Under the pieces are notes generated by a model. That model searched no databases and had not been told where the DNA came from. It was given only the letters and a program-made list of their open reading frames with translations. Below are positions 5,705 through 48,600 of a stretch of DNA of 64,000 nt, piece after piece (position 1 is the stretch's first letter; each line of letters begins with the position of its first letter). Origin of the DNA: Nitrosophilus labii (GTDB lineage Bacteria > Campylobacterota > Campylobacteria > Campylobacterales > Nitratiruptoraceae); the NCBI RefSeq assembly GCF_014466985.1, contig NZ_AP022826.1, positions 1,426,001 to 1,490,000 of the forward strand, read 5' to 3'. The position numbers and the translations under genes are program-made.

Positions 5705-5723
5705 ATTTCAATGTCAAGAAAGA

Positions 5724-5795
5724 GTTGAGTAGATGAGTGGTTGAGTAGTTGAGTGGTTAACCTACTTAACCATTTTAACCTTTTTAACCACTTAG
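5724..5795. repeat. Octamer repeat block in the pstS leader
   Basis: Units GTTGAGTA, GATGAGTG, GTTGAGTA and GTTGAGTG follow each other from 5724 to 5755. They pass into the complementary sense (GTTAACCT, ACTTAACC, ATTTTAAC and related words) to about 5795. The block can therefore fold back on itself in the pstS leader RNA. It belongs to the family also seen at 2534, 7083 and 33345. Confidence 0.7.
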
Positions 5796-28307: not shown

Positions 28308-29618
28308 CTAAAAACTGTTTTTACCTTTAGACTCTAGCCTAATTTCTACTGATTTTGCATGGGCTTCCAAGCCCTCAACATGCGCTAAAATTGCCGCTGC
28401 TTCGCCGATATCATGCATAGCTTGGCAACTAAAAGAGATGATTGAACTTTTTTTCATAAAATGTTCCACATTTAAAGGAGAATAGAACTTAGCAGTACTT
28501 CCGGTAGGAAGAGTGTGGTTTGGGCCTGCTATATAGTCTCCAATTGGTTCAGGAGTATTTTCTCCTAGAAAAATAGCTCCTGCATGTTTTATTTTAGGTA
28601 AAAGTTCAAAAGGGTTTTTGGTAATAACTTCTAAATGTTCCGGTGCAATTTGATTCATAAGAACAATAGCCTCTTTCATACAACTAGTAACTATAATAGC
28701 TCCTCTTTCATCTATAGACTTTTGTGCTATCTCTCTTCTTTTTAAAATTTTAAGAAACTCATTTATCTCAAAGTCCACACTTTTTGCCAAATCTTCGGAA
28801 GTGGTTATCAAGATGGAACTTGCCATCTCATCATGTTCGGCCTGACTTAAAAGATCAATAGCAACATATTTCGCATTTGCACTTTCATCAGCAAGTATTC
28901 CTATCTCGCTAGGACCCGCTATCATATCGATATTTACTTCTCCAAAAACAAGTTTTTTAGCTGTTGCGACAAAGATATTTCCCGGTCCCGTTATAACATC
29001 TACTTTAGGTATGCTCTGGGTCCCATAAGCCATAGCGGCTATAGCGCTGGCTCCACCAACTTTATAAACTTTTTCTATACCGCACAAATGGCAAGCGGCT
29101 AACAATAAAAAGTTTGGCTCGTTGTTAGGAGTCGGAGTCGTTACTACAATCTCTTTTACTCCGGCAACTATAGCTGGAATAGCGTTCATCAAAAGAGAGC
29201 TTGGATACGCCGCTTTTCCTCCGGGGATGTAGAGTCCGGCACTATCTACAGGAGTAACTTTTTGACCCAAAATAGTTCCGTTATTTTCAAAGTCAATCCA
29301 GCTTTTTGGAAGCTGCTTTTCGTGATAAGTTTTGATTCTCTCATACGCTAGATGTAAAGCGGCTTTTAATTTTTCGTCTAGTTCATCATAAGCCTTTTTC
29401 ATCAAAGCCGGATCTATCATAAGTTCATTACCGTTTTTAGGTTCCCATCCGTCAAATTTTGCGATATGTCTAAAAAGCGCTTTGTCCCCTTCGCTCTTTA
29501 TCTCAGCTATTATATTTTGTACGAGGGGAGTAACACTCTCTATATCCATATCAGATCTGTTTAAGATCTTCTCAAACTCTTTTTTAAAATTTTGACTCTT
29601 TGTATATAGTATCTTCAT
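28308..29618 (-). CDS. hisD: Histidinol dehydrogenase
   Basis: 436 residues, the usual length. Motifs typical of HisD include VDSAGLYIPGGKAAYPSSLLM, GVKEIVVTTPTP, DVITGPGNIFVATAKK, and the zinc/active-site region SQAEHDE with LEVITKNP and AGPNHTLPT. It catalyses the last two steps of histidine synthesis from L-histidinol to L-histidine with NAD. No other his genes are adjacent, as is common in this phylum. Confidence 0.95.
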   Translation of the reverse strand: MKILYTKSQNFKKEFEKILNRSDMDIESVTPLVQNIIAEIKSEGDKALFRHIAKFDGWEPKNGNELMIDPALMKKAYDELDEKLKAALHLAYERIKTYHEKQLPKSWIDFENNGTILGQKVTPVDSAGLYIPGGKAAYPSSLLMNAIPAIVAGVKEIVVTTPTPNNEPNFLLLAACHLCGIEKVYKVGGASAIAAMAYGTQSIPKVDVITGPGNIFVATAKKLVFGEVNIDMIAGPSEIGILADESANAKYVAIDLLSQAEHDEMASSILITTSEDLAKSVDFEINEFLKILKRREIAQKSIDERGAIIVTSCMKEAIVLMNQIAPEHLEVITKNPFELLPKIKHAGAIFLGENTPEPIGDYIAGPNHTLPTGSTAKFYSPLNVEHFMKKSSIISFSCQAMHDIGEAAAILAHVEGLEAHAKSVEIRLESKGKNSF

Positions 29619-29641: not shown

Positions 29642-30559
29642 TCAGATTTTACCAAACTTTGTTTTATATCTAGCTATCATGCTCTCATTTCCTTTTAGAC
29701 CACCTTGGTGGATGTATAAAAGGGGATTTGGAATTAGGAATTGGGAATTGGTTAAAATAGTTTTAAAGGCTATAGGATCATATAACAGATCAAATTCTAT
29801 ACCTGTTTCTTTTTTTAAATCTAACCAGATCTCGTACAGTTCTTTGTAAAGTTTTCCAAATCTGTACTTTTTTGGAGGATTTAAAATAGTAGGATGAAAT
29901 TTTTCATTTGGTTCAAGAGAAAAAAACTGTTTTTTAAGATAGGTACCCTCAGCAACGCAAGGAACAGTATAAACTTGTAAGTGGGAATTAGGAATTGGGA
30001 ATTGGGACAAATTTTTTTGTAAAAATAGAGCAGTTGTGCCTGTTCCTGAAGGCAAAAAGAGATTTAATTTTTTAAAATTTTTCTCTTTTGCCCACTCAAT
30101 AATCTCAGTGGCCAATATTTTTATACCTTCTTCGGCCTCTTTACACCTTCCCCCTTCTGGAATGATTAAAGTATCTCCAACTATTTTTATTTCACTCAAT
30201 AGATTTAAATCACCAATGTCCAATGTCCAATGTCCAATATCCATTAACTTCATTCCATTTTCAAGTGCCGCTTTTAAATTGCCGTTAGGATTTTTCAAAA
30301 CCTTTTCATTGATTCTTGAAAAATATTCAAACTCCCAGCCTTTTAATTTTGCTAAAACTGATAGTGAATACATTGCATTTGACTGCATTGATCCAAATAA
30401 AACTACCCTCTTTATATCTGGAAATTCATTAATCAAAAAGTAGTAAAATTTTCTAGCTTTGTTACCGCTAAAATCTAAATGCAGTAGATCATCGCGTTTT
30501 ATGTAGAAGCTTTTGTTTTTGAAGGTTATCTTTTGGACAGGTGAGTTTTTTAAAATCAA
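29642..30559 (-). CDS. PLP-dependent ACC deaminase / D-cysteine desulfhydrase family protein with repeat insertions
   Basis: 305 residues. The N-terminal text IKRDDLLHLDFSGNKARKF carries the PLP lysine K34 in the GNKxRK motif of the ACC deaminase/D-cysteine desulfhydrase family. Other family elements are a GGRCKEAEEG segment and SGTGTTALFL, the phosphate-binding glycine turn. Three stretches encoded by heptamer repeats interrupt the family sequence: MDIGHWTLDIG, SQFPIPNSHLQ and NSQFLIPNPLL (DNA at 30213-30240, 29984-30004 and 29724-29751). They keep the frame open. Whether the enzyme remains active is not known; the core motifs are intact. It lies in a run of minus-strand metabolic genes between fba and hisD. 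Confidence 0.75.
   Translation of the reverse strand: MILKNSPVQKITFKNKSFYIKRDDLLHLDFSGNKARKFYYFLINEFPDIKRVVLFGSMQSNAMYSLSVLAKLKGWEFEYFSRINEKVLKNPNGNLKAALENGMKLMDIGHWTLDIGDLNLLSEIKIVGDTLIIPEGGRCKEAEEGIKILATEIIEWAKEKNFKKLNLFLPSGTGTTALFLQKNLSQFPIPNSHLQVYTVPCVAEGTYLKKQFFSLEPNEKFHPTILNPPKKYRFGKLYKELYEIWLDLKKETGIEFDLLYDPIAFKTILTNSQFLIPNPLLYIHQGGLKGNESMIARYKTKFGKI
29724..29751. repeat. Heptamer repeat inside the PLP-enzyme gene, site 1
   Basis: Four 7-bp units, GGATTTG, GAATTAG, GAATTGG and GAATTGG, lie near the 3' end of the coding region and are translated as NSQFLIPNPL. The same unit occurs at 29984 and at 33309-33343. Confidence 0.85.
29984..30004. repeat. Heptamer repeat inside the PLP-enzyme gene, site 2
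   Basis: Three 7-bp units, GGAATTA, GGAATTG and GGAATTG (21 bp = exactly seven codons), translate as part of SQFPIPNSHL. They are identical in unit to site 1. Confidence 0.85.
30213..30240. repeat. Heptamer repeat inside the PLP-enzyme gene, site 3
   Basis: Units CCAATGT x3 and CCAATAT read on minus as ACATTGG repeats and translate as DIGHWTLDIG. The unit differs from sites 1 and 2 but is related to the GGATATT units at 33288. Confidence 0.85.
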
Positions 30560-33243: not shown

Positions 33244-33287
33244 CAAATCTCCTAATTTTTTTTTGATAGAATTATATCAAATATAAT

Positions 33288-33362
33288 GGATATTGGATAT
33301 TGGTAATTAGGAATTGGGAATTTGGAATTGGGGATTTGGAATTTAGTTGAGTAGTTGAGTGA
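33288..33362. repeat. Mixed heptamer and octamer repeat block between yebC and nth
   Basis: GGATATT x2, a GGTAATTA unit, GGAATTG, GGAATTT, GGAATTG, GGGATTT and GGAATTT follow each other, then GTTGAGTA and GTTGAGTG. This one block joins the GGAATTG heptamers found inside the PLP-enzyme gene and the GTTGAGTR octamers found in the pst region. Confidence 0.8.
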
Positions 33363-33663
33363 GCGAGAGTAAAGCAAAGCTTTAGGACAATTGCTTGTTG
33401 TCCGTGCCTGAAGCGAAAGCAACGAACATATGAGTTGCTGGTGTACCGAAAAGCAAATCAAGTGAGTAAAGCGAGCGAAGATTTGTGGTTAATGTTAGTT
33501 GAATAGTTGGGTGAAAAGTGAAGAGTGATGAGTAATCAGTAATCGGGGAAAAGTGGTAAGGGATAACTTAATACTTATTTCTTATCACTTCACTCTTAGC
33601 ACTAAAAACTCACACCCACACCCACACTCACACTCACTAACACTAAAACTTAAGGACTTTATT
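33363..33663. other. Non-coding repeat-rich stretch before nth
   Basis: A GC-richer segment (33363-33480) carries the hairpin GGACAA-TTGCTTG-TTGTCC (33385-33403) and words such as AAGCGAAAGCAACGAAC and GAGCGAAG. It is followed by low-complexity AGTGAAGAGTGATGAG and CACACCCACACCCAC-type runs up to the ribosome site AAGGAC of nth. A long open frame crosses this stretch but encodes only low-complexity text, so it is not taken as coding. Confidence 0.55.
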
Positions 33664-36023: not shown

Positions 36024-36068
36024 CAATAGCTAATATACCAATAGCTAATATACCAATAGCTAATATAC
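36024..36068. repeat. Three perfect 15-bp tandem repeats
   Basis: CAATAGCTAATATAC occurs three times without interruption, with partial copies on both sides (36002-36023 in inverted sense; CAATAACTACTAAC after). It lies in the 104-bp gap between pepD and the host-attachment-like gene. A related word pair (ATTAGTTATTGG / CACCAATA) occurs upstream of clpX at 55146-55235. Confidence 0.85.
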
Positions 36069-36081
36069 CAATAACTACTAA

Positions 36082-46389: not shown

Positions 46390-47726
46390 GACCGTTCATA
46401 ATTTTGTGTCACCGATAGTTCATAGGATTATATCATAGCTCGAGAGCTTTCTCGAGTCTTCCTTCAAAAAATATAGCCAATTGGGAGAGAGTAAGACTCC
46501 AGTTTCTAATTGGCATTGTCCACTTTTTTTGAGCATTCTGAATACCAAGATAGAGCAGCTTTAAAAGGCTGTTTTCATTGGGAAACGCTCCTTTTGTTTT
46601 AGTAAGTTTTCGAAACTGTCGATGGACAGATTCTATGATATTTGTAGTATAGACGATACGACGGATATCTTCAGGGTATTTGAAATAATAAGAGAGATTT
46701 TCCCATTTATTCCTCCACGAGTTGATAACAATGGGGTATTTTTTGCCCCATTTCTCTTCAAGCCGATCCAATTCCGTTTCGGCAGCCTCTTTGGATATTG
46801 CCTGATACACTTTTTTAAGGTCTTTCATGAACTCTTTGGAGTCTTTAGAAGCTACATATTTAAGGGAATTTCTTATTGTCCTCGGCTTCGCCTGCGGGGT
46901 TGTCGCTTCGCTCGGACGATGAATAATGCAAAGTTGCACTTCGGTCTTAGGAAATATTGCATTGATAGCCTCTGAAAACCCTTTGAGTCCATCCACTGAT
47001 AATAAGTATATCTTCGACTCCTCTATTGTTTAAATCTGTTAAAATAGATAGCCAGAAATTGGCACCTTCAGACTCTGATAGATAAAGTCCCAATATCTCT
47101 TTTTTGCCTTCCAAATTTACTCCAAGGATAGTATAAACAGCTTTATTAACATATTTACCATTATCTTTGATTTTATAGTGTATTGCATCAAGCCAAATGA
47201 AAGGATATACTGCCTCTAATGGTCTTTGCTGCCACTCTTTTAACATTGGAATAATCTTATCTGTAACAGCACTAATAGTGGCTTTGGAAAATTCAATACC
47301 ATAAAGTTCTTCAATATGCTGGGCTATCTGGCTATAGGAGTTTCCAAGAGCATAGAGTAATAGTATTTTCTGCTCTATTTGATCGCTCATATGAGTTTGA
47401 TACTTTTTAACGATTTGAGGTTCGAATGTCCCTTTTCTATCTCTTGGAACCACTAGTTCAAACTCGCCAACTGAACTCTTCATTGTTTTTGAAGATTTGC
47501 CATTTTTGCGGTTTTTTATCTCTTTAGCTAGATGTGATTCAAGTTCTGCTTCTAAAGCAGCCTCTGTGAGTTGTTTAATAAGTGGTGCAAGTACTCCATC
47601 TTTGCCATCTATTTTTGCTCCAGCCTTGATAGCCTCAAGAGCTTCATTCAAATCGAAGTTTTCCATATTGTGTCTCTCCTTTAGATTATTTTATTCTATC
47701 GGATTGACACAAAATTTCTAACGCTC
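46390..47726 (-). mobile_element. IS256-family insertion sequence, degenerate
   Basis: 1337 bp, the normal size of IS256-family elements. Left end 46390-46418 (GACCGTTCATAATTTTGTG followed by TCACCGATAG) and right end (inverse of 47696-47726: GAGCGTTAGAAATTTTGTG followed by TCAATCCGATAG) are imperfect inverted repeats. It contains one transposase gene broken by a frameshift and a small insert. No target duplication is recognisable at the flanks, which suggests deletion or rearrangement after insertion. Confidence 0.85.
46433..47666 (-). pseudogene. IS256-family transposase, frameshifted and carrying a 39-nt in-frame insert
   Basis: The N-terminal 239 codons (47666-46947) and the C-terminal 187 codons (46996-46433) together make one IS256 transposase. 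The DDE residues are D in FIWLDAIHYK, D in VDGLKGF and E in IIESVHRQF. The frame breaks near 46990-46998, just before VDGLKGF, consistent with loss of two bases. A second oddity is CIIH-RPSEATTPQAKPRT-IRNSLKYV, where IS256 proteins have CIIHQIRNSLKYV: about 13 extra residues coded by GC-rich DNA (46874-46915). The enzyme cannot be made in one piece unless ribosomes shift frame. Confidence 0.85.
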
Positions 47727-48084: not shown

Positions 48085-48600
48085 TTTTTTTACTCTATTT
48101 TTACCTAGCTTTATCAACTTTGAAGGTTTTCCTTCAAAAAACTCTCTATTATCTTCTACGATAACTTCAGCGTTTTTGTATGCAAATAGATAATCAAATC
48201 TTTTCCCCGACTCATTTGCGCTAGTAGAAAACATCCAGCCAAATTTTTTTAAAAATCTAAGATGATTTTCATCTTTTATAACTCTGAGGGCTTTTCTATT
48301 TGGATAGACAAAAGTGGTCTTTTGGGCTCTTCTAACCATCTTTTTATACTTTTTTGGAACTCTTGCAAAACGTTTTAACGTTTTAAAACTATCAACTGAA
48401 ATTAAAAAAGGTTTGTTTGGATCTCTTTTTTTAACTTTTGCCAACTTTTTAGCGTTTTGAGACAAAAAACCTACGGTAGTTTCAGTTTGAACAAGATATA
48501 TTTTGTCAGGTTGAAGGTTGAAGGTTGAAGGTTGAAGGACTCTTTTTTCTCTCTTCTTATTTCTTACTTCTTCATTCCTACTTCTCCCTTCTCCCTTCAA
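48076..48600 (-). CDS. Short Sua5/YciO/YrdC-like protein with repeat-coded N-terminal extension
   Basis: 174 residues if started at TTG 48600, which sits seven bases after an AAGGAG in the end of carB (translational coupling). Conserved text begins only at IYLVQTETTVGFLSQNAKKL, near residue 33, and goes on through RDPNKPFLISV and MFSTSANESGKRFD (the STSANxSG motif of YrdC domains). At about 140 conserved residues it is shorter than TsaC/Sua5. The first 32 residues come from low-complexity DNA, including four GGTTGAA heptamers (48509-48536). Related proteins act in threonylcarbamoyl-adenosine tRNA modification; the short version may instead be a binding protein. The 3' end overlaps the convergent AtpR-like gene. 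Confidence 0.7.
   Translation of the reverse strand: MKGEGRSRNEEVRNKKREKRVLQPSTFNLQPDKIYLVQTETTVGFLSQNAKKLAKVKKRDPNKPFLISVDSFKTLKRFARVPKKYKKMVRRAQKTTFVYPNRKALRVIKDENHLRFLKKFGWMFSTSANESGKRFDYLFAYKNAEVIVEDNREFFEGKPSKLIKLGKNRVKKLR
48509..48536. repeat. Four GGTTGAA heptamers at the 5' end of the YrdC-like gene
   Basis: Perfect 7-bp units at 48509, 48516, 48523 and 48530 encode LQPSTFNLQP on minus. The upstream coding DNA (48537-48600) is purine-rich low-complexity sequence (GGGAGAAGG, AAGAAGTAAG) of the same style. Confidence 0.9.

Follow-up and report, generated by a model that had tools for sequence, protein, structure and literature searches.

The gene for a PLP-dependent enzyme of the ACC deaminase/D-cysteine desulfhydrase type in Nitrosophilus labii carries three in-frame runs of heptanucleotide repeats, and these runs are real and beyond chance. 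The gene lies in the window, by which we mean the whole 64,000-nucleotide stretch of DNA that was analysed. The preliminary description of this DNA was correct in placing three heptamer runs within the gene, in an ORF open without a stop, and in reading residues of repeat origin in the protein; the arrays read SQFLIPN, SQFPIPNSH and IGHWTLDIG (Table 1). We favor the explanation, to which we assign a probability of about 0.75, that the arrays are heptamer simple-sequence repeats resembling the STRR repeats, the heptamers of heterocystous cyanobacteria, and that they have been changed by slippage, homogenised, and tolerated in loops of the enzyme at a net length that is a multiple of three.

Table 1. 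The enzyme gene, its neighbor and arrays, and other arrays of the window (positions are those of the window).
Feature	Position	Strand	Description	Sequence
PLP-dependent enzyme gene, ACC deaminase/D-cysteine desulfhydrase type	29642..30559	-	ORF, 305 aa, no stop; hosts three arrays	
hisD	28308-29618		adjoins PLP-enzyme gene	
Site 3 array	29724-29751	+	GGAATTR x4, 28 nt, C-rich on coding strand, encodes TNSQFLIPN	+ strand ...GGATTTGGAATTAGGAATTGGGAATTGG
Site 2 array	29983-30007	+	GGAATTR x3.5, 25 nt, C-rich on coding strand, encodes SQFPIPNSH	GGGAATTAGGAATTGGGAATTGGGA
Site 1 array	30213-30243	-	GGACATT x4.4 on coding strand (CCAATGT on +), 31 nt, encodes IGHWTLDIG	CCAATGTCCAATGTCCAATGTCCAATATCCA
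Intergenic cluster between divergent genes	33283..33652		left side G-rich, right side C-rich	left: ATATTGG, GGAATTR, GTTGAGTA, GTGAAGA/GTGATGA; right: ACTCACACCC, CACTAACACTAAA
Array pair	48508..48598		G-rich (+) then C-rich; within 5' end of an ORF whose called start is probably too early	AGGTTGA x4.4, then TTCTTAC/CTTCTCC
Intergenic pair	5723..5794		G-rich (+) then C-rich	AGTTGAGT-type, then TTAACC-type run

The host protein is matched over residues 16–94 by TIGR01275 (D-cysteine desulfhydrase/ACC deaminase; E 4e-10), a distant match that falls well under the curated cut-off, and a search with a profile built from its close orthologues gave an E value of 4e-74 for the solved chain 9jqf_A (1-aminocyclopropane-1-carboxylate deaminase/D-cysteine desulfhydrase); a Pfam search of the protein at the default cut-off returned no family. 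A homologue of the enzyme was found in 49 of 60 relatives, and comparison of coordinates placed hisD beside it in G000–G003, G005–G009 and G012–G014, where G000 is the 2.09-Mb genome containing the window and the other handles denote related genomes.

The preliminary description likened the runs to cyanobacterial STRR heptamers and proposed a genome-wide search for tandem runs, and both suggestions were borne out. GGRATTRGGRATTR matches the 2.09-Mb genome 74 times and its reversed control not once, and 464 kb sampled from this genome contained 31 period-7 runs against 3 in Markov simulation. Among periods 4–13 the excess is clearest at 7, being absent at periods 4–6 and small at 8–13; periods 14 and 21 are also in excess, largely because of the period-7 arrays themselves. 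GGACATTGGACATT is less frequent, with four matches in the genome, two of which fall within the enzyme gene. In 628 kb of G000 we counted 86 arrays, 80 intergenic and 6 in ORFs, and since most arrays are intergenic, the presence of three in a single gene is unusual. Across 249 genomes of the order, GGAATTR reaches high counts in just three, all of the same genus (74, 43 and 37 matches); a smaller group elsewhere has up to 16 matches, and most of the remaining genomes are near background; G003 makes heavy use of other heptamer words as well. An excess of period 7, words dispersed mostly between genes, and changes of copy number by whole units, all features of an STRR-like class, are found for these arrays.

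Other repeats were seen in the sampled DNA. A 15-bp tandem repeat (CAATAGCTAATATAC x3.6, 97% matches) occupies 36024–36077 of the window. In addition, three places in the G000 sample (window 46443–47390, L156 12962–13909 and L076 14299–15246) carry a stretch of ~950 bp that is ~70% identical to one G002 contig, perhaps as a paralogous gene family.

Alignment revealed heptamers, in part degraded, at one or more of these sites in seven genomes, G000 and six relatives of the same family (G002, G003, G005, G006, G007 and G009), the arrays of G005 being the most degraded and assigned by resemblance only. The words on the coding strand vary, with GGACATT or GGAATT at site 1 and CCAATTC, CCAATGT or TCACTAA at sites 2 and 3. 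Site 1 is nevertheless G-rich on the coding strand, and sites 2 and 3 C-rich, in every array-bearing genome. For example, G006 has TGTCCAA/CCAATGT in place of TTCCCAA/CCAATTC at sites 2 and 3, and G003 has TCACTAATTACTA at site 3, in both cases with unchanged strand polarity. Because relatives possess arrays at matching sites, with the word changed and the polarity fixed, the in-gene arrays probably date back to an ancestor of this species group, with rewriting in place since then. The expectation that the three segments would be insertions absent elsewhere is only partly correct, given the six relatives, and the finding that the preliminary description held would count against it, namely the same residues at these sites in homologues from unrelated strains, is thereby present in part. 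Since the stretches sampled from G005, G006, G007 and G009 contain few intergenic heptamers, the enzyme gene retains arrays in genomes whose gaps have hardly any. Horizontal transfer of the array-bearing gene is not required: the gene tree groups the array-bearing genes, the array-free, long-branched G008 falling in their midst, and the hisD neighbor is kept; the resolution of both trees is weak. Adjoining the site 1 heptamers of the G009 enzyme gene is a GC-rich, in-frame insertion of 45 nt (L037 1843–1887; GTCCTCGCTTCGCTG...), 25 nt of which match G003 (L104 18905–18929) at 92%.

The segments had been thought to look foreign to the protein family, an impression that does not fit their age, their presence in relatives or the lengths of the loops in which they lie. 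Between conserved anchors, the site 1 loop comprises 20–22 residues in heptamer-bearing genes and 10–22 in heptamer-free genes, and the site 3 loop 16–18 and 14–21 residues, respectively, apart from one bearer outlier of 34 at sites 1/3; only the site 2 loop is usually longer in heptamer-bearing genes (11–13 residues versus mostly 5–10). The segments correspond to residues 108–117, 185–194 and 270–277 of the protein, and in the profile alignment gaps in 9jqf_A fall at or close to each of the three sites. These alignments, on which the placement in loops rests (the single-sequence fold model was poor, with a mean pLDDT of 40), indicate that the three sites are places of variable length across the protein family.

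How the gene stays open can be explained in simpler terms than the selection or copy-number preference originally invoked. Both GGAATTG and GGACATT are free of stop codons in all six frames, unlike GGAATTA, AAGGTTG and AGTTGAG, and this property accounts for which words occur in the enzyme gene without a preference for copy number. Unit by unit it is correct, as had been argued, that three copies are needed before the frame is restored. This is not the reason for openness, which requires that the total length of the loop be a multiple of three, as none of the array lengths (Table 1) is. The same data bear on phase variation, in which a copy-number frameshift at one array would switch the enzyme on and off. 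Seven-base units would indeed shift the frame, and neighboring intergenic arrays do change by single units; nonetheless, all 28 of the 28 translated homologues, including the seven that bear arrays, are intact over the matched stretch, and the in-gene arrays are short, with 3–4 imperfect units. Moreover, at site 2 exactly 21 nt (three units) are absent in G007 and present in G009, an in-frame difference that is the one change in array length seen within the gene among the species-level relatives compared. We therefore regard phase variation as very improbable.

The rates of change at the sites argue for a process other than steady divergence. Between G000 and G002, 4-fold sites differ by 11%, while site 1 differs by 37% and site 2 by 28% (binomial p 2e-9 and 0.004). 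Conversely, site 2 differs by 13% between G000 and G003 and by 10% between G000 and G009, where 4-fold sites differ by 50% and 71%. The rates at sites 1 and 2 fit episodic rewriting and homogenisation rather than steady drift. Because the divergent patch at site 1 runs ~40 nt past the array in the G000/G002 comparison, ordinary recombination that brought in a divergent allele could account for part of it. The near constancy of site 2 among G000, G003 and G009 might also suggest that selection favored the peptides as functional loops, e.g. for stability, with the repeats as a by-product. However, G002, G005 and G006 have different residues there, and the residues are partly deleted in G007 and replaced in G008, which makes such selection a highly doubtful explanation. 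Most likely, the arrays have no specific role in the enzyme.

Between genes, array positions are conserved between G000 and G002, with clear indels of 7, 14, 14, 35, 14, 7 and 7 nt and substitutions that are not obviously raised; in the large intergenic cluster of the window (Table 1), indels of 14 and 7 nt separate G000 from G002, its sister genome. We propose that the arrays entered or arose in the enzyme gene in an ancestor of the species group, that the observed changes of copy number by whole units were most likely made by replication slippage or unequal recombination, and that the observed similarity of words between arrays, together with their replacement at fixed places, was most likely caused by conversion or recombination between arrays. 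Persistence within the gene would then reflect the variable length of the loops, the lack of stop codons in GGAATTG and GGACATT, and the survival only of net changes that are multiples of three. Several observations fit this explanation less well. Slippage alone leaves the recurrence of a few words at dozens of unlinked sites unaccounted for, and the homogenising step has been deduced with no donor tract identified.

A further property for which slippage does not account is the strand polarity of the arrays. We scored adjacent pairs of arrays with '+' for an array that is G-rich on the + strand. In the 628 kb of G000, which were partly picked around the matches of one word, there were 28 '+-' pairs and one '-+' pair (tandem gaps 20:0, divergent 5:0 and convergent 3:1). 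For the exact word over the whole G000 genome the ratio was 12:0, and for arrays of any word at 80 loci picked by the GGAATTR word (cyanobacteria, Bacteroidota, Chloroflexi, Clostridia, Xanthomonas and others) it was 48:4. With respect to the nearest gene edge, the G-rich strand pointed away from the ORF in 52:14 cases in G000, the 80 loci giving 118:33, and at stops in convergent gaps it pointed outward 27 times and inward 3 times in the pooled count; all of these counts employ a simple ORF caller and include orthologous arrays, which are non-independent. Array-free gaps exhibited little skew, or the opposite skew at starts. The words contain GG or GGG at most, many having no G run beyond GG or a single G (for example AGTTGAG, AGTGATG and GGACATT), and most are C-poor on one strand. 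Here the polarity holds whatever the word, including words without a G-tract, and so extends the placement described by Rehm et al. 2015. Avoidance of Shine-Dalgarno-like sequences before starts is excluded as its sole cause, since stops in convergent gaps display it too. The order of G-rich then C-rich on the + strand was also noted in G000 stretches L061–L079 and L141–L160, with any word or gene orientation. In L009, L017 and L026, some arrays start at, or extend over, the stop codon of the gene before them, and the repeat may itself supply the stop.

One mechanism that would produce such polarity is the extension of the 3' ends of breaks with G-rich heptamers, in the manner of telomeres, followed by rejoining of the ends, such that two outward arms meet in the gap. 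It is consistent with the outward direction of the G-rich strand whatever the word, with the polarity beside convergent stops, with the lack of a corresponding skew in array-free gaps and with the C-poor strand of most words. It is quite unlikely all the same: searches found no Ku in G000 and its relatives and detected no reverse transcriptase (RVT_1) in the array-rich G002 and G003, the in-gene arrays are not the paired arms of a filled gap, and a de novo event was not seen. The broader idea that the strand rule is general over phyla and arises from an undescribed polar process, for example G-rich 3'-end addition or strand-biased repair in gene gaps, with the in-gene arrays as its fossils, is an unlikely proposal.

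The paired arms also recall mobile hairpin elements of the MITE or REP type, with the arrays as arms moved by a transposase, and long hairpins are indeed predicted for the pairs (z -5.8 to -7.9). Two loci in G000 (C1 1064014–1064186 and 1094233–1094393; L159 and L026) share an AT-rich core of 13-base units (TATTCAATTAGTA) in inverted orientation, and one array pair is present twice with an identical core (1253774–1253865 and 1935671–1935762; L143 and L153), possibly as part of a longer duplication. Apart from this exact duplicate, the former is the only core common to different pairs; the cores between arms are nearly all unique, where a MITE should have a conserved core in many copies. In addition, the Y1 (RAYT) transposase (PF01797) that accompanies REP/RAYT palindromes had no match in G000, G002 or G003, single arrays and mixed-word pairs are common, and the three in-gene arrays are separate. 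We accordingly give very little credence to mobile hairpins as the source of the arrays. As drivers, transposase, reverse transcriptase and Ku were all rejected, their presence not tracking the array-rich genomes. Word families agree within pairs (p 0.008), and the exact order of variants in GGAATT pairs does not, the similarity of GGAATT arms being no higher within pairs than between them (p 0.31). The arms of a pair are therefore not simple copies of each other, an arm-templated (quasi-palindrome) origin is not supported, and the same result weighs against our preferred explanation of slippage and homogenisation.

The arrays belong to the bacterial heptanucleotide repeats, as kin of the STRR, GGGAATC and TAACTGA repeats. 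Like STRR, they consist of degenerate seven-base units that are dispersed in the genome and mostly intergenic, and GGAATTR x3 is itself found in Nostocaceae, Symploca, Oscillatoriales and others. They differ in their mixture of words and in the internal, in-frame arrays of an enzyme of a catalytic family; in the strict sense, the host of STRR is a heterocystous cyanobacterium. The GGGAATC and GGGGA(C/T)T repeats described in Xanthomonas and Nostoc are intergenic, and their G-rich strand is the non-coding one upstream of an ORF and the coding one downstream, a placement tied to possible G-quadruplex regulation (Rehm et al. 2015, PMC4692102). Our arrays resemble these in intergenic location, strand placement and variation of length between relatives. 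In many of our words, by contrast, G stands alone or as GG at most, such that the polarity is independent of G-quadruplex-type words. The TAACTGA repeats of Beggiatoaceae lie mostly upstream of genes, and a few are read through ORFs as peptides (LSVISYQ) (MacGregor 2015, PMC4679880). Translation of heptamer arrays into repeat peptides has thus already been reported, but those in ORFs are mostly near protein ends or in hypothetical proteins, whereas the three arrays here are inside an enzyme and common to related species. The preliminary description knew of no such heptamers in coding genes of Campylobacterota; heptamers as such are not new to the group, judging from GTGATTA, which PMC4692102 cites as reported earlier from Helicobacter pylori. 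PMC4692102 and PMC4679880 both quote the earlier hypothesis of Mrazek et al. 2007 that ascribes heptamers to slippage.

In many bacterial genomes, heptamers reportedly outnumber all other long simple repeats. The enzyme gene offers orthologous arrays in which word, length and strand can be traced across species. The word-independent strand rule, which we consider the part most worth pursuing, serves as a constraint on any model for the origin of these repeats, and it is one that plain slippage fails.
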